Origin: an uncultured Lachnospiraceae bacterium
Lineage (GTDB): Bacteria > Bacillota > Clostridia > Lachnospirales > Lachnospiraceae
Length of the DNA: 49,726 nucleotides
Assembly (NCBI GenBank): GCA_947564735.1
Contig: CANOEC010000029.1
Location: 1-49,726, forward strand
Direction of reading: 5' to 3'
The translations under genes were made by a program, and so were the position numbers. The notes beneath the pieces were generated by a model. It did not search any database, was not told where the DNA came from, and saw only the letters and a list, made by a program, of their open reading frames with translations. Every line of letters begins with the position of its first letter. The stretch's first letter is position 1. This document shows, piece by piece, positions 10,101 to 48,669 of the stretch.

Positions 10101-10199
10101 GATAAGAAGGAGGCGCTTGCCGCAGGCATGAACGGGCATATTGCCAAACCCATTGACATTTCGGTACTCTTGGAAGTCTTAAGCGAAATATTGCATTGA
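7170..10199 (+). CDS. Hybrid sensor histidine kinase with PAS and two receivers
   Basis: This 1009-aa protein has a membrane span (about 11-32), an extracytoplasmic sensor of about 260 residues (Cache-like in size and topology) and a second span (about 297-317). A cytoplasmic PAS domain (about 350-475) comes next, then a HisKA domain with NNMSHDIRTP and phospho-accepting His510. The HATPase has the G boxes DTGIGMS and GTGLGMAI. Two receivers follow, with acceptors Asp802 (IIDWLMPDMNG) and Asp939 (LMDIQMPKMNG). There is no HPt domain, so phosphate must leave through a separate protein. The start is GTG with GGGGGAGG upstream. A possible partner HPt lies in the kinase gene at 15874. Ligand and output are not known. 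Confidence 0.9.
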   Translation: MRERQKKQTIIFAVVGGAVIAAILLLTTIWVSNSAREGTNQAVNKVSEFYLEELAGRRAQVVAEQLQSGFGYMEHAFEIIDESDLASQESLREFFRRVKKLCNINRFAFVDENGIVYTEFDTESGIGKYSFLSEKVTEPLISTENLYGEKKLVVLAIPVEDITFQGARIESCFIQLDIEQMLSSLASQTDYNESYWSLYHRNGNNLTNNDFGNLKAGTNLLTELKNADIYNGFSYEQLADDFANGRKGQMSFNYMGAQENLCYIPVEGTDWMLTVLIRDNVINGQISSISSEMMHRSNIQIAVTVIVMLLVFVTLIRQISVNGQALLAQEKADGDKIRAAYEQIEKEQAAMDNIHAAMGSGLWSMEFDEQAEMTSCTWSEVFRRMVGYGSKEEFPDRIESWSDLLYEEDKERVLQEYWATVKDYTGEKTYDVEYRLHTGNAGLRWFHAAGRLSRREDGSPINFVGLFVDIDDEKKMEEQLERQKIDLEDALVAAQHANRAKTTFLNNMSHDIRTPMNAIIGFTSLAASHIDDREKVQDYLAKITVSSNHLLSLINDVLDMSRIESGKVKIEEKEVSLPEIMHDLKTIVQADVTSKQLEFYIDTADVVNEHVMCDKLRLNQILLNLLSNAMKFTRPGGLVGVRILQKGNASEGWASYEFEVKDTGIGMSKEFLEHVFEPFERERTSTVSGIQGTGLGMAITKNIVDMMNGTISVESEEGKGTTFTVALQFRTCEGSVRQDVIPELRGLRALVVDDDFNTCSSVTKMLTVIGMRSDWTTTGKEAVLRVQLAVEQSDDYAVYIIDWLMPDMNGVEVVRRIRGIIGEEKPIIILTAYDWSDIEKEAREAGVTAFCSKPIFLSELREVLETPFMVQNADDVTVEPLSFEGRKILLVEDNELNQEIAVEILKETGFCIDVADDGEVAVEKMKEASPGQYDLILMDIQMPKMNGYEATRQIRAMKRPEIANIPIIAMTANAFEEDKKEALAAGMNGHIAKPIDISVLLEVLSEILH

Positions 10200-12810: not shown

Positions 12811-12843
12811 TATGAAAGAACGCAAACGGTGAAGGAGACTTTG

Positions 12844-13539
12844 ATGGAACGGATTTTAGTTGTGGAAGATGACCTCGCTTTGAGTACCGGTTTGTGCTTT
12901 GAACTGGACCAGACCGGCTATGTGACGCAGGCTGCCTATAACTGTAAGAAGGCGAGATTTCTTGTGCAGCAGGAGGAGTTTGCGCTGGCGGTTCTTGATG
13001 TAAATCTGCCGGACGGCAGCGGATTTGCGCTGTGCAGGGAGATGAAGCTTGTGCGCCCGCAGATGCCGGTGATTTTTCTTACCGCAAATGATTTGGATGA
13101 AGATGTTCTGCGCGGTTTTGATATGGGCGCCGAGGATTATATTACGAAGCCTTTTCACATGCAGATTCTATTAAGGCGGGTGGAGGTGGCGATACGCCGC
13201 AATGCTGCATATAAGGAGCGGCAGGATGATGGCGAATGCTGGCAGGATGGATTTTTATGCTTGGATTTTACGGCGCTTACCGCCAACTGCGGGGGAGAGA
13301 AACTTGCGATTACGCCAAACGAATATAAGCTTTTGAAGGTTTTGACAGCCAATGCCGGCAAGGTGGTTACGCGGCAGGCGCTGTTAGAGAAATTGTGGGA
13401 TTGTGACGGGAATTATATAGACGATCATACTTTGACGGTGACCATGAACAGGCTTCGTGCCAAAATCGAAGACGCGGAGCATGTCTACATCAAAACGGTG
13501 CGGGGTATGGGATATGTCTGGCAGGGAGCGCAGAAATAA
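12844..13539 (+). CDS. OmpR/PhoB-type response regulator
   Basis: The 231-aa product has an N-terminal receiver (acidic pocket VVEDD, phospho-acceptor Asp52 in LDVNLPDGSG, conserved Lys in DYITKPF). A C-terminal winged helix follows, with ITPNEYKLLKVL, DDHTLTVTMNRLRAKIE and the final TVRGMGYVW. The ATG at 12844 is 5-6 bases from AAGGAGA; an in-frame GTG at 12829 lies inside that site and is less likely. The kinase gene follows 32 bases later. The pair resembles BceRS/VanRS-type systems controlling antimicrobial-peptide ABC transporters, which is what lies downstream (21464-28038). Confidence 0.93.
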   Translation: MERILVVEDDLALSTGLCFELDQTGYVTQAAYNCKKARFLVQQEEFALAVLDVNLPDGSGFALCREMKLVRPQMPVIFLTANDLDEDVLRGFDMGAEDYITKPFHMQILLRRVEVAIRRNAAYKERQDDGECWQDGFLCLDFTALTANCGGEKLAITPNEYKLLKVLTANAGKVVTRQALLEKLWDCDGNYIDDHTLTVTMNRLRAKIEDAEHVYIKTVRGMGYVWQGAQK

Positions 13540-13571
13540 GGCGGGAGTAATGCAAAAATAATACAGGGAGA

Positions 13572-14660
13572 ATGCAGGAAGAACGGGTGAGGATGGCGAT
13601 GGAGCTGACGAAAAGAAAACAGACAAAGAACCATATGGAAAACCGTGTGGTAAGCCGTGTGGCGGAAACGGCGATGCTGATTGCGGCTGTGTCGCTGTTT
13701 GCTGCGTTTTTCTATGTGCTGAGAATATGGGTAGCGCGCGAGGCAGTACGGTATACACTTGCCGCCCTGTGCAGCGCAATCTGTCTTCTGGCATTCGGAT
13801 GGTGTCTGTGGCAGCGAAGGCAGATATACGGTTTTGCAGAGGAGTTATGCCGGACGATTGATGAACTGATGGCGGGAGGCGGGACGGAGAATGCTGCTTC
13901 CTATGAAGATACCCTGACTGCGAGGGTACAGGGAAAGCTTCTGCAATATGATGACCAGATGCGTGAAGGGAGACGGCGCATACAGATGGACAAGCAGACG
14001 ATACAGGAGCTTGTGAGCGATATTTCTCATCAGGTGAAAACGCCCATTGCGAATCTTACGATGTTCATCGGCATTTTGCGGGAGCACCGGCTCAGCGAAG
14101 AGAAGCAGGCGGAGTTTCTGGATACGATGGCAGAGCAGATTGGTAAACTGGATTTCCTGATGCAGTCTTTAATCAAGATGTCGCGACTGGAAACGGGAAC
14201 CTTTGTGATGCATGTGAAGGAAGCGAGTCTTTACGATACGATTGCACAGGCACTAAATGGTGTTCTGGCGCGGGCGGAGGCAAAGGATATCGCACTTTCG
14301 GTTGCATGTGAGGAATCTGTTCTGGTACGGCACGACCCGAAATGGACGGCGGAAGCAATCGGCAATATTCTGGACAATGCCGTCAAATATACGCAGGACG
14401 GTGGAATGATACATATAAGCGTCCGCCCGTGGCAGTTTTATACACGGGTGGATATTACGGATAACGGAGCCGGCATACCAAAAGAACGCTGTCATGATGT
14501 ATTCAAGCGTTTCTGGCGTGGTGAGGAGAATGCAGGATTAGAAGGCGTCGGGCTGGGGCTCTATCTGGCGCAGGGAATCATGAACAGGCAGCGGGGGTAT
14601 ATCAGCGTCAGTTCAAAGGTGGGAGAAGGCAGCACTTTTTCCGTGTATCTGTTAAATTAA
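13572..14660 (+). CDS. Sensor histidine kinase, short-loop (intramembrane-sensing type)
   Basis: This 362-aa kinase has two N-terminal spans (about 33-51 and 60-80) joined by a loop of fewer than ten residues, so it has almost no extracellular domain. The HisKA domain has SDISHQVKTP with phospho-accepting His153. The HATPase has NILDNAVKY, DNGAGIPKE and GVGLGLYLAQ. Short-loop kinases of this type usually sense through a partner FtsX-type ABC permease instead of binding a ligand themselves. Two such transporters lie further down the same strand. It is paired with the regulator at 12844. Confidence 0.92.
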   Translation: MQEERVRMAMELTKRKQTKNHMENRVVSRVAETAMLIAAVSLFAAFFYVLRIWVAREAVRYTLAALCSAICLLAFGWCLWQRRQIYGFAEELCRTIDELMAGGGTENAASYEDTLTARVQGKLLQYDDQMREGRRRIQMDKQTIQELVSDISHQVKTPIANLTMFIGILREHRLSEEKQAEFLDTMAEQIGKLDFLMQSLIKMSRLETGTFVMHVKEASLYDTIAQALNGVLARAEAKDIALSVACEESVLVRHDPKWTAEAIGNILDNAVKYTQDGGMIHISVRPWQFYTRVDITDNGAGIPKERCHDVFKRFWRGEENAGLEGVGLGLYLAQGIMNRQRGYISVSSKVGEGSTFSVYLLN

Positions 14661-14720: not shown

Positions 14721-15788
14721 ATGAAAAATACGATTTTGGTTGTAGATGATGATAAGACGAATCTGGCGCTGGCACAGAAGATTCTGTCGCCGAGATACCG
14801 TATTGCGGCGTCTAATTCCGGCAGGGGAGCCTTAAAATATCTGGAAGGGCATCACCCGGAACTGATTCTTCTGGATATCAATATGCCGGATATGGACGGT
14901 TATGAAGTGATGGAACAGATTCGGATGCGGGAAGAAACGAAGACGATTCCGGTGATTTTTCTGACGGCGGATAATCTGGCGGAGACAGAGGTTAAATGCT
15001 TCCAGATGGGCGCCATGGATTTTGTGACCAAACCCTTTGTGCCGGATATTCTGTTGAGCAGGGTGGATAAGACGATTGAGTTAGATCAGTACCGGCATAA
15101 TCTGGAGAAGATGGTCAGGGAACAGGCGGACAAGATTACCGAGGATGCAAGACGCATCAGCAGGATTCAGGACTCCGTTATTGTCGGAATGGCGAATCTG
15201 ATTGAGAGCAGGGACGGAAGTACGGGCAAGCATGTCAAGAATACACAGATGTATGTGCGGATGATTGCCGATGAACTGCGAAGACGGGAGCTTTTCACCA
15301 AAGAACTGACGGAAGAATACATAGAAGATTTGTGTAAGGCGGCGCCGCTCCATGATGTGGGGAAGATAAAGATTCCGGATTCCATTTTACAAAAACCCGG
15401 CAGGCTGACCCCGGAGGAATTTGACACCATGAAGCAGCACACCACGCATAGCAGTAAGATTATCCAGATGATTATCGGCGATGTGGAAGACGAACATTAT
15501 GTGCGGATTGTGGAGGATATTGCCATGTACCATCATGAGCGGTGGGATGGTACGGGCTATCCGACAGGACTAAAGGCGGAGGAGATACCGCTTGCGGCGC
15601 GCATCATGGCGGTGGCTGATGTTTTTGACGCACTTTATGAGGAGCGGTGTTACAAGCCCCCTGTGCGTCCGATTGAGAAGATTATGCAGATTATGCTGGA
15701 TGGTAAGGGCACGCAGTTCGATCCGGTGATTATTGATGTATTTATGGAAATGCTTCCGATGTTAAAAGAAGTACTGGAGATTGCGTAA
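14721..15788 (+). CDS. Response regulator with HD-GYP phosphodiesterase domain
   Basis: This 355-aa protein has a receiver at residues 1-125 (acceptor Asp52 in LLDINMPDMDG). A short coiled linker follows, then an HD-GYP domain (about 160-350). The metal-binding HD is His211-Asp212 in LHDVGKIKIPD. The later His271-His272 and Asp276-Gly-x-Gly-Tyr-Pro281 complete the HHExxDGxGYP signature. HD-GYP proteins hydrolyse cyclic di-GMP or related cyclic dinucleotides. Here activity would be set by phosphorylation of the receiver. With the HPt-bearing kinase next door at 15874, it is the natural output of a local phosphorelay; this link is inferred from adjacency. An SD-like GAAGGGAG precedes the ATG. 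Confidence 0.92.
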   Translation: MKNTILVVDDDKTNLALAQKILSPRYRIAASNSGRGALKYLEGHHPELILLDINMPDMDGYEVMEQIRMREETKTIPVIFLTADNLAETEVKCFQMGAMDFVTKPFVPDILLSRVDKTIELDQYRHNLEKMVREQADKITEDARRISRIQDSVIVGMANLIESRDGSTGKHVKNTQMYVRMIADELRRRELFTKELTEEYIEDLCKAAPLHDVGKIKIPDSILQKPGRLTPEEFDTMKQHTTHSSKIIQMIIGDVEDEHYVRIVEDIAMYHHERWDGTGYPTGLKAEEIPLAARIMAVADVFDALYEERCYKPPVRPIEKIMQIMLDGKGTQFDPVIIDVFMEMLPMLKEVLEIA

Positions 15789-15873
15789 AGAAAATGGAAA
15801 TACAGTCGGCACTGGAAACTGAGCGGAAAAGCGATGGCGGCGCAGACAGGGCGGAAGGGCAGGGACGATTACT

Positions 15874-18765
15874 TTGAACGAGAGAAAGTTTAGAAATGAT
15901 AAAGTGGGAAGAAAACTGGAGCAGATTGTGCTGGGCTTTTTTACGGCGTTTTCGCTCTCCATGTTTGTTTCCTCTATATTGTTGGAATGGAATCTGATTT
16001 TTAAGGAAATCATTGTCGTCACAATTGTGGCAGGGTGGATTGTGGTGATAAAAAAGTATCGGGATTATACGTACCGTGCAAAATTTCTGGCAGTCATTTC
16101 ATGGGTGAACTTTATTGTCTATGCCGTACAGTCAGTCAGCTTTACTTCCATGCTTTCCACCATGCTTGCGCTGATTGTGATGCTTGGCATTTTTGGCATC
16201 ACGGATATTGTGTACTTGGGCGTTGTGTTTACGACAGGGATTCTTCTCTACCACGGTTTTGTACTCCATACCATCACGACGGAATCCGCCAATGACGTTC
16301 TGCGCATTATTCTGCACATCGTATCGGCATACGCAATCCTGTTAGTTACATGGATTACCATCCGTACCAGACAGGAAACGAGCGAACAGCTGATGGAGAA
16401 CATTCGGGAATTGGAGGTTGTGGAGAAGAGCAAGGATGACTTTATGGTCAATATCTCCCATGAAATCCGCACACCGATCAATGCTGTGTGCGGTATGAGC
16501 GAAGCAATACTGCAGGAGGAAATCCCGGTAAATGTAAGACGCGATATCATAGATATCCAGACGGCGGGACGAAATCTTCTTTCCACAGTCAGTAATATTC
16601 TGGATTTCTCCGAGTTGGAGAGCGGTAAGATGGAGCTGGCGGAGGAGAGTTATAATATTACATCCACGATTACGGATATCATCAACATGGCTGTGACGTT
16701 AGAGAATGGGAAAAAGCTGGAGCTGATTGTGGATTGTAATGCGGATCTTCCGAGTAATTTACTGGGTGATGAGCAGAAGTTTCGCCGCATTGTCATGAAT
16801 TTGTTGGAAAATGCGATGAAGTTTACAAAGGAAGGCGGCATCATTCTGCGCATCAAGAGCCGGAAGGAGGAGTACGGAATCAACTTGATGGTGAATGTGA
16901 AGGATTCCGGCATCGGTATGAAGCAGGAGGATTTGGAGAAAATCTTCGCCAGCTTCAGTCAGGTCAATTCCGGGAGGAACAGGGAAGAGGGAGGCGTGGG
17001 TCTGGGACTCGCCATTACGCAGGCGCTGGTGCGTAATATGGGCGGATTTATCAGCGTTGAGAGCGAACTGGGAAGCGGGACGGAATTTCAGGTCACCATT
17101 CCGCAGAAAGTGCTGGATGAGACGCCGATTGTCTCCATCAGAAACAAGAGCCGCATCTTTGTGGCATGTTATATTAATATGGACAAATATGATTATTCCG
17201 TGGTGCGGGAAGGATATGAGAAATGTATGCGCCATATGGCGGAGAGATTCGGCATCATGTTTCGCGTATGCCGGAATCTTTCGGAATTAAAGAGGCGTAT
17301 GGAGAATGAGAATTATACGCATGTGTTCATTGGCTGGGAAGAATATGATGAGGATCGTGAGTTTTTTGAAAAGGTATCGCTGGAACTGAAGGTGGTTCTG
17401 ATACTTGATTACGAGCAGGAAGTGCAGGATGAAAGTAATATGCTGCGTATTTATAAGCCTTTTACCGTGTTGTCCATAGCGGCGGTGTTAAACGGTGAGA
17501 AGGTGCTGCAAAATGAAGAAAGGCGCAGTCGTTACCGATTCGTTGCACCGGATGCGAAGATTCTCGTGGTGGATGACAATGCAATGAACTTAAAAGTAAT
17601 GGCAAGGCTTTTGCTGCCCTATCGGATTAAGGTGGTTATGGCGCTCGGCGGGCAGGAGGCGCTTGAAAAACTAAACAGTATGGAGTATGATTGTGTATTT
17701 TTAGACCATATGATGCCGGATATGGACGGTGTGGAGACACTGCATAAGATAAGGCAGAAGCCGGGCACTTACTATCAGTCGCTGCCGGTGATTGCTTTTA
17801 CGGCGAACGCCATAGGCGGTGCGCGGGAGATGTTCATGGAAGAAGGTTTCGATGACTTTATCGCCAAACCGATTGAACTGAGTGTGCTTGAAAGAATGCT
17901 GCAGCGCTATATCCCGAAGCAGAAACAGTTAGAAGTGAAGGCGCAGGAAGAGGCGGCGGATAGCGGCAGCATGCCTGATGAAGGTGCGGTGCAGGAAACG
18001 GCAACGGGCAAAAAGGCGGATAAGGGAGCCTCCGGTGCAACGCCGGAATCGGAGGGATTGGAAGCGCTTGGCCGCGCGGGCATCAATGTCTCGCAGGGGA
18101 TTTCCTACTGCGGAGACAGAGAGGGGCTGCGGGAAATCATTGCCATGTATCACGCGCAGGGCGCAGGGCGGAGCCGTCAGCTGCAGCAGTTGTTTGAGGA
18201 ACAGAACTGGAAGAATTATGCCATCACCGCACATGCCTTAAAGAGCAATTCCAGAGGAATCGGCGCGAACGACTTGGCGGAGCTTGCTTTCGCTATGGAG
18301 ATGGCTGGTAAGGAAGAGCGTATAGAGTATATTTTGGAACACCATGCGGAATTTATGAGAAAACATGAGGAACTTCTGGCGGCACTGGCGGAGAATCCAT
18401 TTATCTATCCCGACGGGTATCAGGCGCCGGAAGAGGAGACGGCGGCAGGGCGGCCGACGGATGAAGCGCATAGTGCGAACGGGGAGCAGACAGATGCGGT
18501 ACAGATAGACGTGCAGGAGCTGGCAGAGAAACTTTCGCAGCTTCGTGAGCAGCTTGACAATTTTGAGAGCGAAGGTGTGGAAGAGATTCTGACGCAGCTT
18601 GCGCCCTGTGAATGTCAGGGGATTGCACTTAAGGACATGACGGTCAAAATCAGACAGTGTGTGGACGAATTTGATTTTCTCGGAGCCATCGGCACGCTGG
18701 ATGATTGGACTAAGAAATTTACGGACGGTCAGAATGGAGGAAATTATGATAAGGAGAATTCGTAG
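15874..18765 (+). CDS. Hybrid histidine kinase with receiver and HPt domain
   Basis: This 963-aa protein starts with about six membrane spans (20-170) and no large outer domain. HisKA follows (NISHEIRTP, His196), then HATPase (DSGIGMK, GVGLGLAI). A receiver-like stretch at about 425-545 lacks a clear phospho-acceptor. A true receiver comes next (Asp611 in FLDHMMPDMDG), then a Gln/Glu/Ala-rich linker and an HPt domain with His787 in AHALKS. A further helical region (about 870-963) ends the protein. The start is TTG with only a weak ribosome site (AGGGCAGGGA), so the start is the least certain part. It carries the only HPt seen in the window and could pass phosphate to the HD-GYP regulator and accept it from other kinases here. 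Confidence 0.9.
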   Translation: MNERKFRNDKVGRKLEQIVLGFFTAFSLSMFVSSILLEWNLIFKEIIVVTIVAGWIVVIKKYRDYTYRAKFLAVISWVNFIVYAVQSVSFTSMLSTMLALIVMLGIFGITDIVYLGVVFTTGILLYHGFVLHTITTESANDVLRIILHIVSAYAILLVTWITIRTRQETSEQLMENIRELEVVEKSKDDFMVNISHEIRTPINAVCGMSEAILQEEIPVNVRRDIIDIQTAGRNLLSTVSNILDFSELESGKMELAEESYNITSTITDIINMAVTLENGKKLELIVDCNADLPSNLLGDEQKFRRIVMNLLENAMKFTKEGGIILRIKSRKEEYGINLMVNVKDSGIGMKQEDLEKIFASFSQVNSGRNREEGGVGLGLAITQALVRNMGGFISVESELGSGTEFQVTIPQKVLDETPIVSIRNKSRIFVACYINMDKYDYSVVREGYEKCMRHMAERFGIMFRVCRNLSELKRRMENENYTHVFIGWEEYDEDREFFEKVSLELKVVLILDYEQEVQDESNMLRIYKPFTVLSIAAVLNGEKVLQNEERRSRYRFVAPDAKILVVDDNAMNLKVMARLLLPYRIKVVMALGGQEALEKLNSMEYDCVFLDHMMPDMDGVETLHKIRQKPGTYYQSLPVIAFTANAIGGAREMFMEEGFDDFIAKPIELSVLERMLQRYIPKQKQLEVKAQEEAADSGSMPDEGAVQETATGKKADKGASGATPESEGLEALGRAGINVSQGISYCGDREGLREIIAMYHAQGAGRSRQLQQLFEEQNWKNYAITAHALKSNSRGIGANDLAELAFAMEMAGKEERIEYILEHHAEFMRKHEELLAALAENPFIYPDGYQAPEEETAAGRPTDEAHSANGEQTDAVQIDVQELAEKLSQLREQLDNFESEGVEEILTQLAPCECQGIALKDMTVKIRQCVDEFDFLGAIGTLDDWTKKFTDGQNGGNYDKENS

Positions 18766-21436
18766 ATACATACAGTCTCTGCTGAATGAAAAGGTGGATT
18801 TCCAGACTAGGCTTGTGAGAATCGTCCTGCTCATGGCATTTGTAGCTTCCATTATCGGAATGGGACGTGTTTTGCTTGGTTCCTCAAAGACAGTACTTTG
18901 CGCGTTGATACCGATGTGCATTGTGTCCGGAGCAGCCCTTTATATAGCCGGGGACAAGCGCAAAATCAAACAGGCGACCAGACTGCTTGTTCTGACGTCG
19001 AATCTTGTCCTGTTTCCGCTGATATTTATTATGAGCGGCGGGGTGGACAGTGGTACGCCGGTCTGGTTCGTATTGGGACTTGTCTACATTTTTCTACTGT
19101 TTGAGGAGCATGAACAGCTTTTTATGTTCCTTGTCTCCATTGCTTCCTTTTTGCTGACTTACTATGTCGCTTACAAGTATCCGCATTTTGTTCCAAAGGC
19201 AAGCCGCATGTACAGCTTTGCAGATTCTTTTATCACGATGGCAGTGGTGAGCAGCTTTATCGGTCTGCTGATGAAGCTTCAGGTGCGGACATATGATAAA
19301 GAACAGAAGCTGGCGGAGGAACAGAGGGCGGAGATTGAACAGATTGCCCGTTCCAAGGATGTTTTTTTTGCCAATATGAGCCATGAAATCCGTACACCGA
19401 TCAATACCATTATCGGTTTGAATGAGATGACGCTCAGGGAAGATATTTCTGATGAGATTGCAGAGAATGCCATTAATATCCAGAATGCCAGTAAGATGCT
19501 GCTTACGACGATTAATGATATTCTGGATTTGTCCAAACTGGAATCCGGTAAGATGGAGATTGTACCGGCACAGTATGAGATTGGCTCGATGTTCAGTGAC
19601 TTGGTGAATCTGATATGGATTCGCGCCCATGAGAAGGAACTGGAATTTAAGGTGGATATTGACCCGGAGATTCCGTCCATGCTCTACGGTGACGAAGTAC
19701 GGATTAAGCAGATAGTCACCAATATGTTGACTAATGCAGTCAAGTATACGGCGGAGGGTTCGGTTACGTTGACAGCGAAGGGGGAGAGGGTCGCGGCAGA
19801 CCAGATTATGCTGCGTATCTCTGTGACGGATACCGGGATGGGCATTCGAAAGGAGAGTCTGGAACAGCTGTTTAGTTCCTTCAAGCGTGTGGACGAGGGA
19901 GATAACCGTAATATCGAGGGGACCGGTCTTGGGCTGAATATTTCCAAGCAGTTAGTCGAGATGATGGGCGGCAGAATTTATGTGGACAGTGTGTACCACA
20001 AGGGTTCCACGTTTACGATGGAAGTGAAGCAGCGAATCGTCAATGTGCGTCCCATCGGCATGATTAATTTTGCGGCGCAGAAACAGTTGAATAACCGGAC
20101 AAAATATAAGCAGAGCTTCACGGCGCCGGATGCCAGAGTGCTTGTCGTGGATGACAATGACATGAACCGCATGGTGGCGATCAAGCTGCTGCGGGGCACG
20201 GGAATCAAAGTGGATACGGCAAGCGGAGGCAAAGAATGTCTGAAGCTGACGGCGGAGAATTTTTACCATGTGATTCTGATGGATCATATGATGCCGGACA
20301 TGGACGGAGAGGAGACAATGAAGGCGGTACGCGCCCAGACGAAGGGATTCTGCCAGAAATCGCCGATTGTTGCATTGACGGCAAATGTCATGACAAACGC
20401 CGAGCAGGTTTATCAGAATATGGGATTTGACGGATACCTTGCGAAACCAATTAACGCCGCCCTGCTGGAAGCAAGTCTGTTAAAATATCTGCCGCAGGAA
20501 TTGATTGAGTATACTGCGCAGGAAGAGGAAGACGGGGCACAGGAGACAGCGGCGATTAATCGTGTGATTGGCGTAAGGAAGCGGAAGATTGCCATCACCG
20601 CGGACTGTATCTGCGATCTGCCGGGAAATCTGCTCGAGAAGTACCAGATCAGGCTGATGTACTGTTATGTGCACACGAAAGAGGGAAGATTCTGCGACCT
20701 TTTTGAAGTTTCTTCCGACGGACTGTTAAATTATCTGCAGACAGAGGGCAATTATGCGCATTCTTCTACGGCGGACCCTTCGGAATATGAATATTTCTTT
20801 GCGGATACGTTAGAGTCAGCGGAGCATGTGATTCACATCACGGCGACGACAGACTTAAGCGGCGCCTATCCGAATGCATTGCAGGCGAGTAAGAGTTTTG
20901 GTAATGTTACCATACTGGACTCGACTCATATCAGCAGCGGACACGGGCTTATGGTATTATATGCGGCAGTTCTGGCGGATGCAGGCAAAGATGTTCGGGA
21001 AATATGCGAGGCGTTAGAAAGAATACGCGAAAGAATCTGTACGAATTTCCTTGTGCCGAGCACGGAAGCACTCTATCGCAACGGCAAGGTCAGCGCGCTG
21101 GTGCACAGAGCATGCAGCGGGTTAAATCTGCATCCGGTTCTGCACATGTCGCAGAATGAGTTAAAGCTCTGGAAGATTGAGACGGGCAATATGGCTCATG
21201 TGCGCCGCAGATATGTGAAGAAACTGCTTCATCACAGTAAGCAGATAGATACAAGTATTTTGTTCCTCACTTATGCGGGATGTACGGTGCATCAGATTGA
21301 GGAGATACTGGAGGAAGTGGAAAAATATATACATTTTGACAGAGTGATCACCCAGAAGGCTTCCGCAACGGTATCCAGCAACTGCGGCGTGGGCGTGTTT
21401 GGCTTAATGTTTGTGCGCAAAGAAAAAGAAGAGTAA
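18746..21436 (+). CDS. Hybrid histidine kinase-receiver fused to a DegV domain
   Basis: This 896-aa protein has about six N-terminal spans (15-180), then HisKA with NMSHEIRTP (His213) and HATPase (DTGMGIR, GTGLGLNI). A receiver follows (Asp513 in LMDHMMPDMDG). From residue 612 to the end there is a complete DegV-like domain. It has KIAITADCICDLPGNLL at its start, HSSTADPSEYEYFF in place of the usual TSQPSPxEF, TTDLSGAYPNALQAS for SSxLSGTYQSA, and LDSTHISSGHGL for the VIDS motif. DegV proteins bind a fatty acid and deliver it for phosphorylation. As a kinase fusion it may make signalling depend on lipid. The ATG at 18746 lies 5 bases after GGAGG, overlapping the previous gene by 20 bases. A downstream ABC gene starts 27 bases after the stop. 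Confidence 0.9.
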   Translation: MIRRIRRYIQSLLNEKVDFQTRLVRIVLLMAFVASIIGMGRVLLGSSKTVLCALIPMCIVSGAALYIAGDKRKIKQATRLLVLTSNLVLFPLIFIMSGGVDSGTPVWFVLGLVYIFLLFEEHEQLFMFLVSIASFLLTYYVAYKYPHFVPKASRMYSFADSFITMAVVSSFIGLLMKLQVRTYDKEQKLAEEQRAEIEQIARSKDVFFANMSHEIRTPINTIIGLNEMTLREDISDEIAENAINIQNASKMLLTTINDILDLSKLESGKMEIVPAQYEIGSMFSDLVNLIWIRAHEKELEFKVDIDPEIPSMLYGDEVRIKQIVTNMLTNAVKYTAEGSVTLTAKGERVAADQIMLRISVTDTGMGIRKESLEQLFSSFKRVDEGDNRNIEGTGLGLNISKQLVEMMGGRIYVDSVYHKGSTFTMEVKQRIVNVRPIGMINFAAQKQLNNRTKYKQSFTAPDARVLVVDDNDMNRMVAIKLLRGTGIKVDTASGGKECLKLTAENFYHVILMDHMMPDMDGEETMKAVRAQTKGFCQKSPIVALTANVMTNAEQVYQNMGFDGYLAKPINAALLEASLLKYLPQELIEYTAQEEEDGAQETAAINRVIGVRKRKIAITADCICDLPGNLLEKYQIRLMYCYVHTKEGRFCDLFEVSSDGLLNYLQTEGNYAHSSTADPSEYEYFFADTLESAEHVIHITATTDLSGAYPNALQASKSFGNVTILDSTHISSGHGLMVLYAAVLADAGKDVREICEALERIRERICTNFLVPSTEALYRNGKVSALVHRACSGLNLHPVLHMSQNELKLWKIETGNMAHVRRRYVKKLLHHSKQIDTSILFLTYAGCTVHQIEEILEEVEKYIHFDRVITQKASATVSSNCGVGVFGLMFVRKEKEE

Positions 21437-21463: not shown

Positions 21464-22126
21464 ATGATTACGGTTCAAAATCTTAAGAAATATTACGGGA
21501 GCGGCAATAGTCAGGTAAAGGCTCTGGATGGGGTCGATCTTACCGTTGCAAAGGGTGAATTTGCTGCCATTGTCGGGGCGTCGGGCAGCGGTAAAACGAC
21601 CTTTCTTAATATCATCGGTGGTCTTGATATACCCACGGAAGGGAAAGTGGTGGTGGACGGCGTGAATCTTGCAGGCCTGCGGGAGGAACAGATGGCGGTA
21701 TTTCGGCGTAAGAAAGTAGGTTTCATATTCCAGAATTATAATCTGGTGCCGACTTTGACTGTGAAGGAGAATATCCTGTTTCCCTTGGATTTGGATGGTT
21801 CTAAGGTGAATGAGAGTTTTTTTGCAGAGATTGTGGGGCTGCTTGGCTTGGAAGAGAAGCTTAAGGTATATCCGGCAATGCTTTCCGGCGGGCAGCAGCA
21901 GAGAGCGGCGATTGCCAGAGCAATGATAGCTAAGCCTTCGGTGATACTCGCGGACGAGCCTACGGGAAATCTGGATTCACGTAACGGGCAGAATGTGGCG
22001 GGGCTTTTAAAAATGACGGCGCAGGTCTATCATCGGACCCTTGTGATGATTACCCATAATCTGGAATTGGCGCAGATGGCGGACAGGGTACTGTATATGG
22101 AGGACGGGAGGATTGTTAGCAAATAA
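21464..22126 (+). CDS. ABC transporter ATP-binding protein (MacB/BceA type)
   Basis: The 220-aa ATPase has Walker A GASGSGKT (38-45), a Q-loop in [10 protein letters not shown], signature LSGGQQQR (140-147), Walker [14 protein letters not shown], and the switch His in MITHN. The NYNLVP and DEPTGNLDS forms are typical of ATPases that work with FtsX-type permeases in antimicrobial-peptide export or resistance and lipoprotein release (MacB, LolD, BceA). It is followed by its permease with a 14-base overlap. It appears co-transcribed with the kinase-DegV gene 27 bases upstream. Confidence 0.94.
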   Translation: MITVQNLKKYYGSGNSQVKALDGVDLTVAKGEFAAIVGASGSGKTTFLNIIGGLDIPTEGKVVVDGVNLAGLREEQMAVFRRKKVGFIFQNYNLVPTLTVKENILFPLDLDGSKVNESFFAEIVGLLGLEEKLKVYPAMLSGGQQQRAAIARAMIAKPSVILADEPTGNLDSRNGQNVAGLLKMTAQVYHRTLVMITHNLELAQMADRVLYMEDGRIVSK

Positions 22127-24659
22127 TAATCTTAAAATATGCCACAGGCTGATGTGGCGGGAGTTTCGATTTCATAAGGGATGCAGCATACTTCTTGTGA
22201 CAGCGCTCACACTGGTAAGTATGCTGTGTACCTTTTCTTTTGCGATCGGGTTTATGGTTCGCTCCGGGCTGAAATACAGTTATCAGATTCAGTATGGCTC
22301 AACGAGCCATATTCTGTACTATGGACTGAACAGTGTGCAGGCGGCCTCTGTTGCAAGACATGCCGACGTGAAGGAAACGGTTCGGCTAAAAGTGCTGGGG
22401 CTGTTATCCGATGATATGCTGGGATACCGAAATGTGAAGCTTGCAGTTGCGGATGATGGGTGGGCTGCGGCAACGGAGGCAGTTCCGGTCAGCGGAAGAA
22501 TGCCGGAGGCTGATGACGAGATTGCTATGGATGAGCTTACGCTGCAGTCCTTGGCGATTCCGCGCAAGGAGGGCGCTAAGGTACAGCTTAGATGGACGCC
22601 TGTAGACGGCGGTGAAGAGCGGGTGGATACATTTTACCTGTGTGGATGGTGGAAAAGTCCTATGGGATATACGGAGACCTGCGCGTGGGTTACTCCAAAC
22701 GCAGCAGGAAGACTCTGTCCGGATGCGCCGGACTACTTGGATTTGGGAGTGACGCTGTATAGACCGCGCAATCTGGATAGGCAGGCGCAGGAAATACTGC
22801 GTGAGCAGGGAGCAGATAAGGTTCCTTATACGACGAATCTGGCATATAACCGGGCAAGACGACAACGTATGAACGAAAAAGCCTTTCCCTTTTATCTGAT
22901 GAATATTGCCGTAGTAGTGTGCGGTATTTTGATGGTATATAATATTGTGCGTATTTCCACAGTCCAGAATGCAAGATTTTATGGGAGGGTAAAAAGTCTG
23001 GGTATGAGTCCCAGACAGATTGGCAGGTTTATAGTTGTGCAGGCGGCATATTTGTGCCTGCCGGCAATCCCTGCGGGCTGGCTGTCGGGGTTTGTGCTTT
23101 ATATGGTTACGGCGCCCTATGTACTCCTTGGAACAGGAGGAGAGCATCCGGCGTTTCTGTTCTTAAATCCGGCACCTTTTGCGTGCAGTGCACTGCTCAC
23201 ATGGTTTACGGCGTTCACAGCCTGCCTTCTTCCGGCACGGCTTGTATCGGGAAGCCGCCCGGCGGAAGCAATGAAATATACCGGACTGTCAGCTGCGATT
23301 CCGGCAGAGGACAGAAGTGGAGCAAAGAAACGTCGTTGCAGAGTGCCGTTTATGGCATTGTACGGAATTAGGAGAGATAAGAAGAAAGCTGTCTTTGCGG
23401 CGGCTTCCATGTGTCTGTCCATGACGCTGCTGTGCGGATTCTGGACGCAGTACATCAGTACTGATGAGGAAAAGTATATGAGGGAAATTGCATATTGTGA
23501 TTATCTGATTGCGGACGCTTCCACTGCCAACAGTCTTCAACGCTATAATCCTGCAAGCCACAGTGTTACGCCGGAGCTTATAGAGGAAATTGCAGGGCAA
23601 AAGGCGGTGACCGCGATAGGAACGGTTCGCACGATGGAAATTCCCATGTATGCGGATGAGGCGGGACGCGCCCCAATCGTGGAGAGCTTTGAGGGTGAGA
23701 ATGAGGAGGGAGTTGTCAGAAAGGCGTATATGTCCGGTTCACCGGACTGGGTGAGCGGGTATGAGAAGTTTCGGACAACAGGTGAGTATATCGGGATTGC
23801 TTCCGGAATAGACGGTCTGGCGGAATCCGTGATTCTGTCAGAGGGAGAATATGTGGAAGGCGTCTATGATGCGGAACGTTTTGCTGCGGGAAACTATGTC
23901 ATTGCGGCAGGAGCAAGTGAAACATCGTTTGTCTCCACGCCGCCGATAGGAAGCAGCGTAGAGATAGGCGGGCGTCAATTTAAAATCATGGCGGCGGTCT
24001 CATATAAGGGGCATATCATTACCGGTGCGGACAGTAGAGAGGCAGCCTTCAACGTCTCCTATTATATGCCGGTGCAGGTATTTGAGGAATTGTTCCCGGA
24101 GTGCGGCATCAGAAATGTGCTGGTAAATATTGACCATAATAGTCAGAAAGAATTTGAGGAATTTCTGTCGAAGAAGATAAGGGATACCGGCATTGCGGTT
24201 AAGATGCGGAGTGATTACCAGTGGGAGTTTGGGAATGCATTATTTCACAATTATGTGATACCGATATTTGTGGGGGCGGTTCTTTTCCTAATCGGTATAT
24301 TGAATTTTGCAAATGCGCTGGTGACGGGAGTGCTCATTCGTAAAAAAGAAATGGCAGTGTATGAGAGTCTTGGCATGACGCAGTTACAGCTTAGAAGGCT
24401 GCTGGTTGGAGAGGGCTTGATGTATGGCGGGATGATGACTGCTTTTCTGGTGCCGGCGGTGTCGCTTATGACATGGCTGTGGACAGGATGGTGGGCGGTT
24501 TATTCTGCCAGTGCATGGTGCGTTACATGGAAGTATTCCCTGCTGCCGATGTGGATTGCGCTGCCGGTGCTTTTGGTGCTCGTTATGGTGATTCCGCTTG
24601 GCTGTCTGCACATGATTAGGAAGGAGAGTGTTACACAGAGACTGCAGATTGTGGAGTGA
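22113..24659 (+). CDS. FtsX-family ABC transporter permease
   Basis: This 848-aa permease has two FtsX-type halves: one span (about 16-40), an outer domain of about 210 residues, three spans (about 262-400), another span (about 430-450), a second outer domain of about 250 residues, and three closing spans (about 708-835). This is the two-ectodomain layout of peptide-resistance or lipoprotein-type exporters. KKEMAVYESLGMTQLQLRRLL near the C-terminus is the conserved FtsX coupling segment. The frame starts at TTG 22113 inside the ATPase gene, with GGAGG upstream; ATG 22152 is a possible alternative. The substrate is unknown; bacitracin- or lantibiotic-like peptides are typical for the class. 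Confidence 0.88.
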   Translation: MLANNNLKICHRLMWREFRFHKGCSILLVTALTLVSMLCTFSFAIGFMVRSGLKYSYQIQYGSTSHILYYGLNSVQAASVARHADVKETVRLKVLGLLSDDMLGYRNVKLAVADDGWAAATEAVPVSGRMPEADDEIAMDELTLQSLAIPRKEGAKVQLRWTPVDGGEERVDTFYLCGWWKSPMGYTETCAWVTPNAAGRLCPDAPDYLDLGVTLYRPRNLDRQAQEILREQGADKVPYTTNLAYNRARRQRMNEKAFPFYLMNIAVVVCGILMVYNIVRISTVQNARFYGRVKSLGMSPRQIGRFIVVQAAYLCLPAIPAGWLSGFVLYMVTAPYVLLGTGGEHPAFLFLNPAPFACSALLTWFTAFTACLLPARLVSGSRPAEAMKYTGLSAAIPAEDRSGAKKRRCRVPFMALYGIRRDKKKAVFAAASMCLSMTLLCGFWTQYISTDEEKYMREIAYCDYLIADASTANSLQRYNPASHSVTPELIEEIAGQKAVTAIGTVRTMEIPMYADEAGRAPIVESFEGENEEGVVRKAYMSGSPDWVSGYEKFRTTGEYIGIASGIDGLAESVILSEGEYVEGVYDAERFAAGNYVIAAGASETSFVSTPPIGSSVEIGGRQFKIMAAVSYKGHIITGADSREAAFNVSYYMPVQVFEELFPECGIRNVLVNIDHNSQKEFEEFLSKKIRDTGIAVKMRSDYQWEFGNALFHNYVIPIFVGAVLFLIGILNFANALVTGVLIRKKEMAVYESLGMTQLQLRRLLVGEGLMYGGMMTAFLVPAVSLMTWLWTGWWAVYSASAWCVTWKYSLLPMWIALPVLLVLVMVIPLGCLHMIRKESVTQRLQIVE

Positions 24660-24688
24660 TTTTTTGAAATCGTCTTTTCTCTCAAAAA

Positions 24689-24718
24689 TGTAACTTTGCT
24701 GTACCTTGTCTGTAACTT
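24689..24718 (+). promoter_or_regulatory. Three direct repeats with 11-bp period (OmpR/PhoB-type operator)
   Basis: TGTAACTT (24689), TGTACCTT (24700) and TGTAACTT (24711) repeat exactly every 11 bases. The last one covers the expected -35 position of a -10 TATGAT at 24732-24737. One-turn-spaced direct repeats overlapping -35 are how OmpR/PhoB-family regulators activate promoters. The regulator at 12844 is the obvious candidate, by inference. Confidence 0.65.
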
Positions 24719-24814
24719 ACGGCTGTTAAGATATGATTACAGGGATTTTGGAAGTGCACGGCAAAAGTGGCTTCGATAAATCTGCCGGAGCAGCAGAAGA
24801 AAGGGGAAAGTGAT

Positions 24815-25492
24815 ATGGATGCGATTGTAAAAGTCACAAACTTAAAGAAGTATTACGGAAATGGAGAGGCGCTCGTAAAAGCGCTTGACGGTGTGGATTT
24901 GGAGATTGAGCGGGGAAAATTTACTGCAATTGTCGGTACGAGCGGCAGTGGTAAATCTACCCTGCTCAATATGCTGGGCGGATTGGATGTGCCAAGCGAG
25001 GGCAGTGTCAGGATTGGAAATCAAGAGCTTGCAAGGCTTACTGCGGAACAGGCAACAATTTTCAGGAGAAAGCAGATAGGGTTTATCTTCCAGAATTATA
25101 ATCTGGTGCCGGTGCTGACCGTGTGGGAAAACATTATTTTTCCAATTTCGCTTGATGCAAGGAAACCGGACCGCAAATTTATCATGGAAATTGTGAATCT
25201 GCTTGGATTGGAGAGCAAACTGGACAGTTTCCCGAATCAGCTTTCGGGCGGCCAGCAGCAGAGAGTGGCGATTGCCCGCGCGCTGGCGACGAAACCATCG
25301 ATTATTCTGGCGGATGAGCCTACCGGCAATCTGGATTCCAGAACGAGCGACGGAGTAATCAGTCTGCTCAGGGTGACAAGTGAACAGTTTCATCAGACGA
25401 TTGTAATGATTACCCATAATCCGGAGATTGCGGCACATGCCGACAGGGTGGTACACATTGAAGACGGGCGCATTGTGGCGGATGCATCGTAA
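24815..25492 (+). CDS. ABC transporter ATP-binding protein (MacB/BceA type)
   Basis: This 225-aa ATPase is closely similar to the one at 21464. Walker A is GTSGSGKS (41-48). [31 protein letters not shown] and MITHN follow in order. The ATG at 24815 follows AAGGGGAAAG; an open frame reaches back to 24767 without a better site. It begins a second transporter unit and is preceded by its own promoter with 11-bp direct repeats. Its permease starts 17 bases after its stop. The two ATPase/permease pairs look like an old tandem duplication that has diverged. Confidence 0.94.
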
Positions 25493-25509
25493 CGGGAGGG
25501 GAGACAGAT

Positions 25510-28038
25510 ATGATTACAGTGATAAGCAAACGAACCTTTCAGAGAAACAGAGGGCGTAATCTGGTGGCAGTACTTGCCATAGTATTGACGACGTTGATGT
25601 TTACCACGCTCTTTGTGTTAAGTGAAAGTATGAATCAGAATATGATTGAGATGACTTTCAGACAGACCGGCTATGATGCGCAGGTTTCTTTTAAGTCCAT
25701 TACCGAAGAGCAGGCGGCTAAGCTGGCGACACATCCCGATGTGGCGGAGGTGGGGAACAGTATCGTTGTCGGACTTGCGCAGGACCGTTTAGTGGCGGGA
25801 CGGCAGGTGGAAATCCGGTGGGCGGACGAAAGTTATGCCAAGCATTCCTTTGCGCTGCCGGTTACAGGAAGGATGCCGGAGACGGAGGATGAGATTGCAC
25901 TGGATACGATGGTGCTTGACAGACTTGGTATTTCGCATGAACTGGGTATGCAGGTTACGTTGCAGTGGATGGCGGACTTTCGGTCGAAGGAGATGAGGAC
26001 TTCAACCTTTACCCTCTGTGGTTTCTGGGAGGCGAACGAAAATAGTTATGCCAGCATGGCATGGGTGAGCAGGGAGTTTGCAGACAGGACGGTGGATTCC
26101 ATCGGCGGAGCGGACGTGGAGACGGGAATGGGAGCGCATATGGCGCAGGTAAGTCTCTGTCAGGACAAAGATATTGATAACAGTATGGAGCGCATTTTGT
26201 CGGATTTAGGGATGAGTGGTTTGGAGTATGGTGTGAATCTTGCATATTCTCCCGAAATGAACAGAATGGCGGCGCAGGAGAAGCTCCCGATGTATCTGGG
26301 GATGATACTTGTCTTTGCGGCGGGGTATCTGATTATTTATAATATTTTTCAGATATCCGTTACGGCGGATATACAGTTTTATGGCAGACTGAAAACGCTG
26401 GGTACAACGAAGAAACAGTTAAAAAAGCTGATTTACATGCAGGCGGGGAGATTGTGTCTTGTCGGCATTCCGATCGGTCTGGTTCTCGGTTATGTGCTGG
26501 GAGCGGTTCTGGTTCCGGTACTCATCACTTTTCAAGCGGGAAGTGTGTCCGCCAGCCCGGTTATTTTCATAGGTTCTGCCCTTTTTGCCGGATTGACCGT
26601 GTTAGTCTCGTGTATGCGTCCGGCGAGGATTGCCGGTAAGGTGTCGCCCATGGAGGCGCTGCGATATCATGAAGCATCACAAATCGGACGAAGCAGGAAG
26701 AAAAGACAGGGAAGCGCGTCACTTATGGCGCTTGCATGGTCGAATCTTGGGCGTAACAGGAAACGCACGGTTACGGTAATCTGTTCACTTACGCTGGGGC
26801 TTACGCTGATGAGCTGCTTCTATGCAAAGAATGCGTCCTTCGACATGGAAAAGTATCTTGAGGGATTGACGATAGCAGATTACCAGATTGACGAGATTAC
26901 GAGTGAAGATTATATGACGGGGTATGACCCGCAGGGAAATACTTTGGAAGGAGAATTGCTTGGACTGGTTGAGTCAATGGAGGGACTGGAGCAGGTGGGA
27001 CATCTCTACAGCCATGAGACACAGATTGCGCTTAGCGAACAGACCATAGAGAACATAGAGCAATTTTATACGGATGATATACTTGCTTCGTGGGCGTCCT
27101 ATGACCCTACAGGAGTTGAGACATTGCGCGATGCCATCGGAGAGAAGCAGGCTCGTTCCGTAGTTTACGGGATAGACGGCATTCCCTTGGATGTCTACAG
27201 CGGGGAAGCATATTGGGAGAACGGTAGTTTTGACGAAGCGCTTTTTGCAACGGGTGAATACGTGCTGGCGATTGGTCCGGGTATGGAACCCGGCATTCAA
27301 GAGCAGAATATGCCGACGGTCAGCGTTGGTGACAAGGTGGACATAGAAGGCAGGCAGTATACGGTGATGGCTGTATTGAACAATTTACAGCCGGTGACGG
27401 AAGGCGCGTATGAGGGCGGCGTGCAGAATGCGTTTTATCTGGATTTTGTTATGCCGGCGAAGACCTTCAAGGAGAATTGGGCGGATAATACACTGCGTAA
27501 GCTGTATTTCAATGTGGATGATGATGGGATTGACGAGGCGCAGAATGAACTTGATGATTATTTCAGGCATACTGGTTTGACTCTACCGGTCACTTCCAGA
27601 AAGTCTATGGCGGCGCAGTATGACAAGGAGACCCGTTCCGCCGCTGTAATGGGCAATGCAGTCAGCATAGTGATTGCGCTGGTAGGTGTACTTAACTTTG
27701 TCAATTCCATGGTTACGGCAATCGTTTCGCGCCAAAAGGAATTTGCCATGATACAGAGTGTGGGGATGACAAAAACACAGTTATGTAAACTTCTTGTCTA
27801 TGAGGGACTGGATTACGCTGGATTGACTCTAATAGTCACATATGCTTTCAGCGCAGTGGCGGTGGGCGTGGGTGTTCGTGCGATGGTTGAGGGAGGGTAT
27901 ACGACATTTCACTTTACGTTATTACCCCTCCTGTTGTGTACGCCGTTGCTGCTTGCGTTTGCCGTCGTGATTCCCTATCTGTGTTTTAAGAATCTGGAGA
28001 AGGACAGTCTGGTAGAGCGGCTGCGCACAACGGGCTGA
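25510..28038 (+). CDS. FtsX-family ABC transporter permease
   Basis: This 842-aa permease has the same plan as the one at 22113: a first span (about 17-40), an outer domain of about 210 residues, three spans (about 258-400), a span near 425-445, a second outer domain (about 445-700), and three final spans. The segment QKEFAMIQSVGMTKTQLCKLL is the FtsX coupling helix. Short motifs such as VTGRMPETEDEIALD in the first outer domain recur in the paralogue (SGRMPEADDEIAMD), supporting duplication. GGGAGGGGAGA precedes the ATG. It most likely exports, or protects against, membrane-active peptides. Confidence 0.9.
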   Translation: MITVISKRTFQRNRGRNLVAVLAIVLTTLMFTTLFVLSESMNQNMIEMTFRQTGYDAQVSFKSITEEQAAKLATHPDVAEVGNSIVVGLAQDRLVAGRQVEIRWADESYAKHSFALPVTGRMPETEDEIALDTMVLDRLGISHELGMQVTLQWMADFRSKEMRTSTFTLCGFWEANENSYASMAWVSREFADRTVDSIGGADVETGMGAHMAQVSLCQDKDIDNSMERILSDLGMSGLEYGVNLAYSPEMNRMAAQEKLPMYLGMILVFAAGYLIIYNIFQISVTADIQFYGRLKTLGTTKKQLKKLIYMQAGRLCLVGIPIGLVLGYVLGAVLVPVLITFQAGSVSASPVIFIGSALFAGLTVLVSCMRPARIAGKVSPMEALRYHEASQIGRSRKKRQGSASLMALAWSNLGRNRKRTVTVICSLTLGLTLMSCFYAKNASFDMEKYLEGLTIADYQIDEITSEDYMTGYDPQGNTLEGELLGLVESMEGLEQVGHLYSHETQIALSEQTIENIEQFYTDDILASWASYDPTGVETLRDAIGEKQARSVVYGIDGIPLDVYSGEAYWENGSFDEALFATGEYVLAIGPGMEPGIQEQNMPTVSVGDKVDIEGRQYTVMAVLNNLQPVTEGAYEGGVQNAFYLDFVMPAKTFKENWADNTLRKLYFNVDDDGIDEAQNELDDYFRHTGLTLPVTSRKSMAAQYDKETRSAAVMGNAVSIVIALVGVLNFVNSMVTAIVSRQKEFAMIQSVGMTKTQLCKLLVYEGLDYAGLTLIVTYAFSAVAVGVGVRAMVEGGYTTFHFTLLPLLLCTPLLLAFAVVIPYLCFKNLEKDSLVERLRTTG

Positions 28039-37919: not shown

Positions 37920-38059
37920 GCGGGTGCGCATGTGTCTCCATATTTTCAGATTGAGCGGGTGCGTGTGTGCCTCCACATTTTCAGATTGGGCGGGTGCGCA
38001 TAAACTCCCACGTTTTCTTATCGAGCGCGTCCATATATGCATCCATATATTCCCAGTCG
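37920..38059. repeat. 35-bp tandem repeat, four units
   Basis: Units begin at 37920, 37955, 37990 and 38025 with exact 35-base period. The first two are nearly identical, starting GCGGGTGCG; the third and fourth are progressively diverged. The last two units form the 3' end of the specificity gene on the minus strand, and its stop codon falls within the second. Because 35 is not a multiple of three, gain or loss of units would change its reading frame and end. Confidence 0.8.
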
Positions 38060-38559
38060 GGGACATAGCCGTGGCAGGAGAAGGTATGCGCATCATCAAT
38101 TACCGGCGTATGGTCGGGGGCTCGTACAATAGGGATCCGTATGGTATCATTGCCGTATTTTTCCGCCGTCACTTTGCGCCCATAGGCGTATTTGAACCGG
38201 TTGGCGGTGAGTATGGTCTGCAGGAACAGATATTGGTTTCTGCAGACCTTTTTGTTTTTTAGTAATAATATTTTCGCGGAATCGCCCACGACACAGCCGC
38301 CCGGCTGGAAGGCAACGTATCCGGCACAGCCGCTTCTTGCCACGGTCAGGCATGGCTGCTGTGTCAGTGTGTAGTTCATGGACTTGCAGTAATCCAAGTC
38401 TATTTTACCTAAGATGCCGTTGTTGTCTTCGCCGCTCTGTACTGCGGGAAAGAAACCGGGGTTGTCGTCTATTTCTTCTTTTGTGATACCTTTGCCGTTG
38501 TAAATCGAGCAGATGTCCGCAATCTTAAATTCTTCCCAGTCGTTGGTATTAAGCTTCAT
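37981..38559 (-). CDS. Restriction-modification specificity subunit, half-size (single TRD)
   Basis: The 192-aa protein contains one target-recognition domain of the type I/BcgI S-subunit kind: WEEFKIADICSIYNGKGITKEE at the start, TVARSGCAGYVAFQPGGCVVGDSA in the middle, and a closing segment resembling 'PDWxYMxxYM'. Type I S subunits and BcgI B subunits usually have two such domains (about 340-450 aa), so this is half a protein. It ends in a 35-bp tandem repeat, where a second domain would be expected. It overlaps the methylase-nuclease gene by 11 bases. It may work as a dimer of single-TRD chains, or be a truncation. Which one cannot be told from this sequence. Confidence 0.75.
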   Translation of the reverse strand: MKLNTNDWEEFKIADICSIYNGKGITKEEIDDNPGFFPAVQSGEDNNGILGKIDLDYCKSMNYTLTQQPCLTVARSGCAGYVAFQPGGCVVGDSAKILLLKNKKVCRNQYLFLQTILTANRFKYAYGRKVTAEKYGNDTIRIPIVRAPDHTPVIDDAHTFSCHGYVPDWEYMDAYMDALDKKTWEFMRTRPI

Positions 38560-48611: not shown

Positions 48612-48614
48612 AGG

Positions 48615-48644
48615 AATCTCCATTCCGGAGCGTTTGCGCGACGG
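48615..48644 (-). repeat. 30-bp repeat carrying the ribosome site, copy 2
   Basis: Identical to 3670-3699 at 28 of 30 positions. On the minus strand it ends in GGAATGGAGATT, which supplies the ribosome site for the kinase. The gap between regulator and kinase genes is only 58 bases, of which this repeat is half. Confidence 0.75.
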
Positions 48645-48669
48645 CAATAAACTCCATTCGGTGTGGTTT

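Follow-up and report, generated by a model that had tools for sequence, protein, structure and literature searches.

A complete DegV domain, of the family of the fatty acid-binding FakB proteins, is joined to an intact hybrid histidine kinase at the end of a phosphorelay cassette of Lachnospiraceae. On balance, and with modest confidence, we favor the reading that this former FakB domain serves the last kinase of the cassette as a regulatory, probably ligand-binding, module; that the ligand is a fatty acid itself would be less probable than this reading taken as a whole. The gene lies in a window of 49,726 nucleotides (the whole stretch of DNA that was analyzed, contig CANOEC010000029.1 of an uncultured Lachnospiraceae bacterium). 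A preliminary description of this DNA had pointed out the fusion and proposed that it could make signaling depend on lipid, implying a carrier role to a fatty acid kinase and a link to the transporters downstream. Because a complete DegV domain is joined to an intact hybrid kinase, signaling could indeed depend on lipid; the role as carrier for FakA and the link to the transporters are not supported, as set out below.

Domain structure of the DegV kinase

The frame at 18746–21436 (forward strand, as are all features of the cassette) is open from an ATG start through 896 codons to a stop. It starts 20 bases inside the end of the preceding gene, and its sequence suggests a ribosome-binding site, GGAGG, at 18736–18740, five bases before the ATG. 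The 896-residue product opens with about six predicted membrane helices (residues ~19–180; 18800–19285), assigned from the helix pattern of the full-length model with the membrane call made by eye on hydrophobicity, a region over which the Pfam search returned no match. Three Pfam domains follow: firstly, HisKA (residues 204–268; 19355–19549), with the phospho-acceptor His213; secondly, HATPase_c (residues 315–429; 19688–20032); thirdly, a receiver, or Response_reg (residues 465–576; 20138–20473), with the phospho-acceptor Asp513. A flexible linker (residues 592–610; 20519–20575; pLDDT <50) leads to the DegV domain (PF02645; residues 614–891; 20585–21418).

The domain search bears out the DegV assignment: the Pfam match (E 8.3e-41) spans positions 1–279 of the 280 of the profile and, at 140.6 bits, clears the cut-off of 27, the NCBIfam DegV model TIGR00762 scores 152.5 bits, above its cut-off of 99.7, and all four DegV motifs quoted in the preliminary description are present in the frame. 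The structure model predicts a DegV fold for the domain with high confidence, and structure comparison gives it the same architecture as ligand-bound FakB proteins.

The kinase portion is equally intact. The window protein carries the HisKA histidine, the N and G boxes of HATPase_c and the receiver aspartate and lysine; among 115 aligned DegV kinases the HisKA histidine is kept in 114 (one gap), the G1 aspartate and G2 glycine in all, the two N-box asparagines in 114 and 115, and the receiver aspartate and lysine in all, with threonine (107) or serine (8) at the remaining receiver position. These counts, and those for the partner genes below, include duplicates, one genome being drawn from two collections. 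The DegV kinase is a member both of the DegV family and of the hybrid kinases.

Conserved partners of the DegV kinase

The conserved partners of the DegV kinase are the two genes upstream of it, which were absent from the preliminary description. The first (14721–15788) encodes a 355-residue response regulator composed of a receiver and an HD-GYP domain (Pfam Response_reg and HD_5). It has the HD dyad and the GYP motif of an HD-GYP phosphodiesterase after its receiver, and these residues are kept throughout the alignment (HD histidine in 60 of 61 sequences; HD aspartate, HH and GYP in 61 of 61). Its sole NCBIfam match at E 1e-30 is the model of the NosR-family c-di-GMP phosphodiesterase response regulator, at 156.9 bits, below the cut-off of 400. 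Judging from its motifs, this regulator is likely the output of the cassette, a c-di-GMP phosphodiesterase. The second gene (15874–18765) encodes a hybrid kinase with HisKA, HATPase_c, receiver and Hpt domains by Pfam, 963 residues from the first possible start, the Hpt scoring 23.7 bits, slightly below the Pfam cut-off of 24.6. Its kinase histidine, Hpt histidine and Hpt lysine are found in 76 of 76 sequences and its receiver aspartate in 75, the last sequence having an X. With the exception of the receiver threonine, every kinase, receiver and Hpt residue that we counted is thus invariant or one sequence short.

This gene order is shared widely. Among the best 80 of 298 relatives in named genomes, a homolog of the kinase-receiver-Hpt gene stands immediately upstream at 77 loci, the contig starting at the DegV gene in the other 3, and a receiver-HD-GYP gene is present at 63. 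After 12 loci with an identical end had been set aside, we typed 118 loci of the cassette with small per-domain profiles: 105 encode kinase-receiver-DegV, 4 kinase-receiver-DegV-Hpt, 7 DegV alone (a number that includes two broken fused genes), one DegV-Hpt, and one receiver-DegV, cut by a contig end. A hybrid-kinase gene lies at most two genes upstream or one downstream in 111 of the 118; of the others, 5 start at a contig end and 2 (L054, L165) have no hybrid-kinase neighbor. The same neighborhood scan found such a neighbor for none of 15 stand-alone DegV genes.

A same-strand c-di-GMP gene occurs within four genes at 90 of the 118 loci (HD-GYP at 76, GGDEF at 11, both at 3), and near 2 of the 15 stand-alone genes (L168, L232). 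The remaining 28 cassette loci, some of them at contig ends, have a receiver alone (6) or neither (22); linkage of the output to the cassette is therefore not universal. In five loci (L158, L159, L225, L226, L227) the DegV gene bears its own Hpt and the kinase directly before it has none; L226 and L227 have an additional Hpt-bearing kinase nearby.

Several single loci are worth recording. Receiver-HD-GYP or GGDEF genes lie a few genes from the stand-alone DegV genes of L168 and L232, in the same orientation. Variant outputs stand by the cassette in L137, L144, L059 and L130, namely receiver-GGDEF-receiver-HD-GYP, a kinase-receiver-Hpt-receiver-HD-GYP chain and a double receiver-GGDEF protein. 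In L165 (G097:C115), on a short contig, the FakB histidine is retained although DegV is fused, and the gene directly in front is a receiver gene, not a hybrid kinase.

Distribution of the fusion

The genome of the window has eight DegV genes, one of them fused. The genus set comprises 25 genomes, this one included, of which 21 hold a relative of the window DegV inside an open frame of at least 600 residues; these copies form two sequence groups, with 71–88% and 35–41% identity to the window domain. One further genome (G024) has a window-type DegV as a separate gene, and no copy of this type was found in the other three (G009, G020, G023). In the named-genome scan, 298 relatives were confirmed and the best 80 kept. 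Most are labeled Lachnospiraceae; other labels are uncultured bacterium, Clostridiales, Roseburia and Oscillospiraceae, with some bins seemingly mislabeled, e.g. as Alistipes. An open frame of at least 800 residues was present at 77 of these 80 loci, a set that contains duplicates (one genome from two collections) and overlaps in some genomes with the genus set. No stop interrupts the fused frames of the genus survey, and the long frames in both sets exclude a missed stop between two separate genes, which the preliminary description had named as a way for the fusion to fail.

Wider surveys place the fusion mainly in the family of the window. At least 46 of 299 family genomes (from 298 genera) have a DegV in an open frame of at least 500 residues, a lower bound set by a strict E-value and by scoring at most 8 candidates per genome. 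Only frames of this length were counted because the 30-row search alignment held a stand-alone DegV (L031), and the matches in 63 of the 299 genomes include plain DegVs. The order survey (246 genomes) gave 9 with a DegV in frames of at least 700 residues, one of them in another family (G268); the class survey (291 genomes) added two genomes of a further family (G326, G400); and the phylum survey (398 genomes) gave no match in such a frame outside the family of the window, with G303 set aside. The 580-residue frame of G303 was not counted as a fusion, its DegV grouping with stand-alone copies in a tree.

The DegV domain compared with FakB

To compare residues, we used 110 non-identical fused DegV sequences, 8 cassette copies that are split or separate, and 56 stand-alone DegVs (58 rows less two duplicates). 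The 8 comprise 6 separate genes and 2 fused genes broken into two frames (L075, L123, the latter apparently on the same contig as L218). FakB2 and FakB1 numbering was matched by counting along the 4x9x and 6mh9 alignment rows; mutant data for FakB2 reportedly come from Broussard 2016. The passages on FakB1 in PMC8892158 describe a network of Ser171-His270-Thr62-carboxylate-Ser95, report that Arg173 is needed for catalysis and Arg205 for FakA binding, term both arginines completely conserved, and state that FakB becomes unstable when the carboxylate network is mutated. The corresponding residues of the window protein are S673 (Thr62), S705 (Ser95), K781 (Arg173), T813 (Arg205) and N879 (His270).

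At the site of the FakB histidine (FakB1 His270, FakB2 His266), 106 of the 110 fused copies and all 8 of the split or separate ones have asparagine; none of the 56 stand-alone DegVs does, these having histidine (53) or tyrosine (3). The four fused exceptions are a gap (L052, a broken gene), serine (L057), valine (L147) and histidine (L165), the gap stemming from a break within DegV in L052/L125. The catalytic arginine (Arg173; FakB2 Arg170) is kept in 23 of 110 fused copies, 66 having lysine, in 4 of 8 split or separate copies and in 56 of 56 stand-alone DegVs. At the FakA-docking site (Arg205; FakB2 Arg202) arginine remains in 2 of 110, 0 of 8 and 51 of 56, respectively, in a column that may be off by one (arginine appears in 15 of 110 in the preceding column and in 0 of 110 in the following one). 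The carboxylate hydroxyls are mostly retained: the Thr62 site is serine in 94 and threonine in 4 of the 110 fused copies, and the Ser95 site (FakB2 Ser93) is serine in 82. Since 28 of the 110 lack serine at the latter site and 23 retain the catalytic arginine, the branches of the cassette differ among themselves.

The contrast survives thinning to 70% identity, with asparagine in 40 of 43 cassette rows and histidine in 25 of 27 stand-alone rows. These thinned rows also reveal residues conserved in the cassette only, including T644, G647, F649, E654, Y663, F684, C790, S873 and N879, next to family-wide positions kept as in stand-alone DegVs, e.g. D620, D624, G780, P797, G814 and G881. Cys790 (21113–21115), in the lid region of DegV, is shared by 101 of the 110 fused sequences and by 6 of the 8 cassette copies that are split or separate, and all 56 stand-alone DegVs lack it. 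These patterns suggest that selection maintains the domain, though not for the work of FakB. As the window domain fails three FakB residue tests, with Lys781, Thr813 and Asn879 in place of Arg173, Arg205 and His270, it should not be called a FakB.

Separate DegV genes and a probable order of events

Six operons carry the DegV as a separate gene: plain in L061, L142, L219, L220 and L221, and joined to an Hpt in L225. In L142 and L219 the kinase-receiver-Hpt gene and the plain DegV gene after it share 4 bases, and L220 and L221 are similar; in L061 the DegV gene comes after a kinase-receiver gene. A receiver-GGDEF gene follows in L142, L220 and L225.

A first tree of 63 chosen rows separated 36 cassette DegVs from the other 27 at 100/100. 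In a second tree of 53 chosen rows, rooted on stand-alone DegVs and still containing the two stand-alone duplicates, 35 cassette rows were separated from 18 at 100/100, and all 29 fused rows sat in one branch (100/99), with L142, L219, L220 and L221 outside it. The simplest order suggested by these trees is entry into the operon first and fusion later: a stand-alone DegV would have entered the operon, lost FakB chemistry and then been fused to the kinase, while L061 and L225 may be later splits. One fusion or more would fit, because a clade uniting the fused copies was not rejected by an AU test (p 0.198).

Proposed mechanism and alternatives

In the mechanism that we propose, both kinases would autophosphorylate at the membrane and pass phosphate from His to Asp to His to Asp, as their invariant residues suggest. 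The Hpt would then phosphorylate the receiver of the HD-GYP protein, or of the GGDEF protein in sister operons, and so set c-di-GMP; gene order and motifs point to this step. With 27 GGDEF matches in the genome of the window, c-di-GMP is likely in use. The cytoplasmic DegV domain would bind a ligand and bias the kinase or phosphotransfer. Its fold and ancestry make an acyl chain the most likely ligand. The mostly retained hydroxyl residues suggest some contact with a head group, and the changes to Asn and Lys suggest that the head group is altered or the carboxylate non-reactive. The Asn substitution and the loss of arginine could also mean that fatty acid is not bound at all.

The DegV domain might instead be a docking or dimerization module, free of ligand, that organizes the kinases or the Hpt. 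DegV is found fused to the kinase, fused to an Hpt or alone, yet with the same type of relay, and its distinctive residue set is conserved in this clade only; however, the fold and the family-wide positions are conserved as in stand-alone DegVs, and the model retains the architecture of ligand-bound FakB proteins. We consider this reading unlikely, though a serious contender.

We give a lower probability still to DegV as the output, in which receiver phosphorylation would control uptake or release of an acyl chain and tune lipid traffic. Domains located after receivers are usually effectors, DegV adjoins the receiver in fused copies, the linker and this position allow such a role too, and the 22 loci with neither receiver nor c-di-GMP gene have no other output gene nearby. 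Against it, three quarters of the loci (90 of 118) do have an HD-GYP or GGDEF gene close by, and in L061, L142 and L219–L221 the DegV protein is alone, with no receiver of its own. Moreover, a fatty acid presented by this domain would have no known taker, because the FakA-docking and catalytic arginines are mostly lost.

That same loss makes it very improbable that the domain still acts as a FakB, handing fatty acid to FakA while tethered to a membrane kinase. Fold and family are shared, the genome has a FakA gene and the site hydroxyls are mostly kept, but fused copies retain the histidine and the two arginines in only 1, 23 and 2 of 110 sequences as against 53, 56 and 51 of 56. The DegV kinase scores 69.4 bits with the FakB1 model NF038249 (which covers FakB1 only), below the cut-off of 350, and the FakA gene lies on a different contig, one gene from a plain DegV. 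Most of the clade having lost the carboxylate, catalytic and FakA-docking residues of FakB, the carrier role implied by the preliminary description is not upheld; the three key residues lost suggest that the domain no longer gives fatty acid to FakA, and the regulatory module remains the reading that we prefer.

Finally, an artefact of assembly or annotation, or a chance one-off, is refuted by the genome surveys and deserves virtually no weight: the relatives are mostly metagenome-assembled (the record of L092, however, names a strain, 1xD42-87, and not a MAG), yet the fusion recurs across the family and in 110 non-identical sequences, its frames in the genus hold no stop, and the cassette DegVs fall on one side of the tree.

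Relation to known systems

DSF is an unsaturated fatty acid, and its sensor RpfC has an Hpt. The parts of PMC9758175 that treat RpfC/RpfG describe a hybrid kinase that senses DSF and activates a receiver-HD-GYP phosphodiesterase that degrades c-di-GMP. The cassette resembles this pair in combining a hybrid kinase that bears an Hpt with a receiver-HD-GYP regulator (14721–18765), and may work like it. It differs in having two kinases, one with DegV, and in belonging to Lachnospiraceae; common domains are the only kinship seen, and RpfC/RpfG is offered as a precedent for the logic, with no descent implied. S. aureus SaeRS offers a second parallel: passages of PMC5539427 describe it as controlled by free fatty acid and fatty acid kinase, so that lipid state reaches a histidine kinase, although there the fatty acid kinase works through the cellular fatty acid pool and not as a kinase domain.

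Among proteins of related fold, the FakB/DegV proteins (PF02645; S. aureus FakB1 and FakB2; T. thermophilus 2dt8) differ from the window domain, which is fused to a hybrid kinase or placed in its operon. DhaQ of Lactococcus (2iu4, 2iu6), a relative of the kinase subunit DhaK, is an operon co-activator outside phosphorelays and a weaker structural match. Among the titles and abstract openings listed by full-text searches of the open-licence literature on DegV/FakB and hybrid kinases we found no description of a DegV-histidine kinase fusion, and none appears in the DegV/FakB passages of PMC3146951, PMC2880560, PMC10138225, PMC9136124, PMC12688256, PMC12288450 or PMC9912610.

As a tentative proposal, possible but somewhat short of even confidence, the cassette would represent a widespread and undescribed class of lipid-gated c-di-GMP phosphorelay, an independent counterpart of RpfC/RpfG fatty acid signaling in gut Lachnospiraceae that reports acyl or membrane state to c-di-GMP. 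To our knowledge, an input has been assigned to few of the c-di-GMP phosphorelays in gut Clostridia. Should DegV report an acyl ligand, fatty acids from the diet, from the host or made by the bacterium itself would feed directly into a c-di-GMP switch of gut commensals. The cassette would also trace a path from the carrier subunit of an enzyme to a signaling domain, of which the stand-alone, operon-linked and fused stages are all extant, and the operon provides a ready genetic and biochemical test of whether acyl ligands are read.

Transporters and other genes of the window

Downstream of the cassette lie two ABC ATPase/FtsX permease pairs of the MacB/FtsX type (21464–28038), which the preliminary description took for peptide-resistance transporters linked to the DegV kinase. 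No peptide-resistance assignment emerged: the ATPases reached no NCBIfam cut-off among the best 25 matches listed, and the permeases had no NCBIfam match at E 1e-30. An ABC transporter follows the DegV kinase at 7 loci among the best 80 of 298 relatives, and we rejected the transporters as a core partner of the cassette. They follow it in near relatives only (L039, partly, at a contig end; L040; L068–L074). An OmpR-type response regulator and kinase pair (12829–14660) lies upstream of the cassette, and in near relatives, where the flank reaches, homologs of this kinase and regulator are immediately upstream as well. Because only near relatives keep this order, an insertion of the cassette may have separated a two-component pair from its transporters, and the OmpR-type pair would be the likelier controller of the transporters.

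Searches of the window gave no Rfam match and no plasmid match. The region at 7170–10199, some 4.5 kb upstream of the gene for the receiver-HD-GYP protein, encodes one more hybrid kinase, which has PAS and two receivers. On the reverse strand, 44100–49437 holds a further ABC ATPase/FtsX permease pair with two more minus-strand genes behind it, by eye a kinase and a response regulator. At 37981–40477 lie an N6 DNA methylase gene and a short companion, by eye a specificity subunit of restriction-modification.
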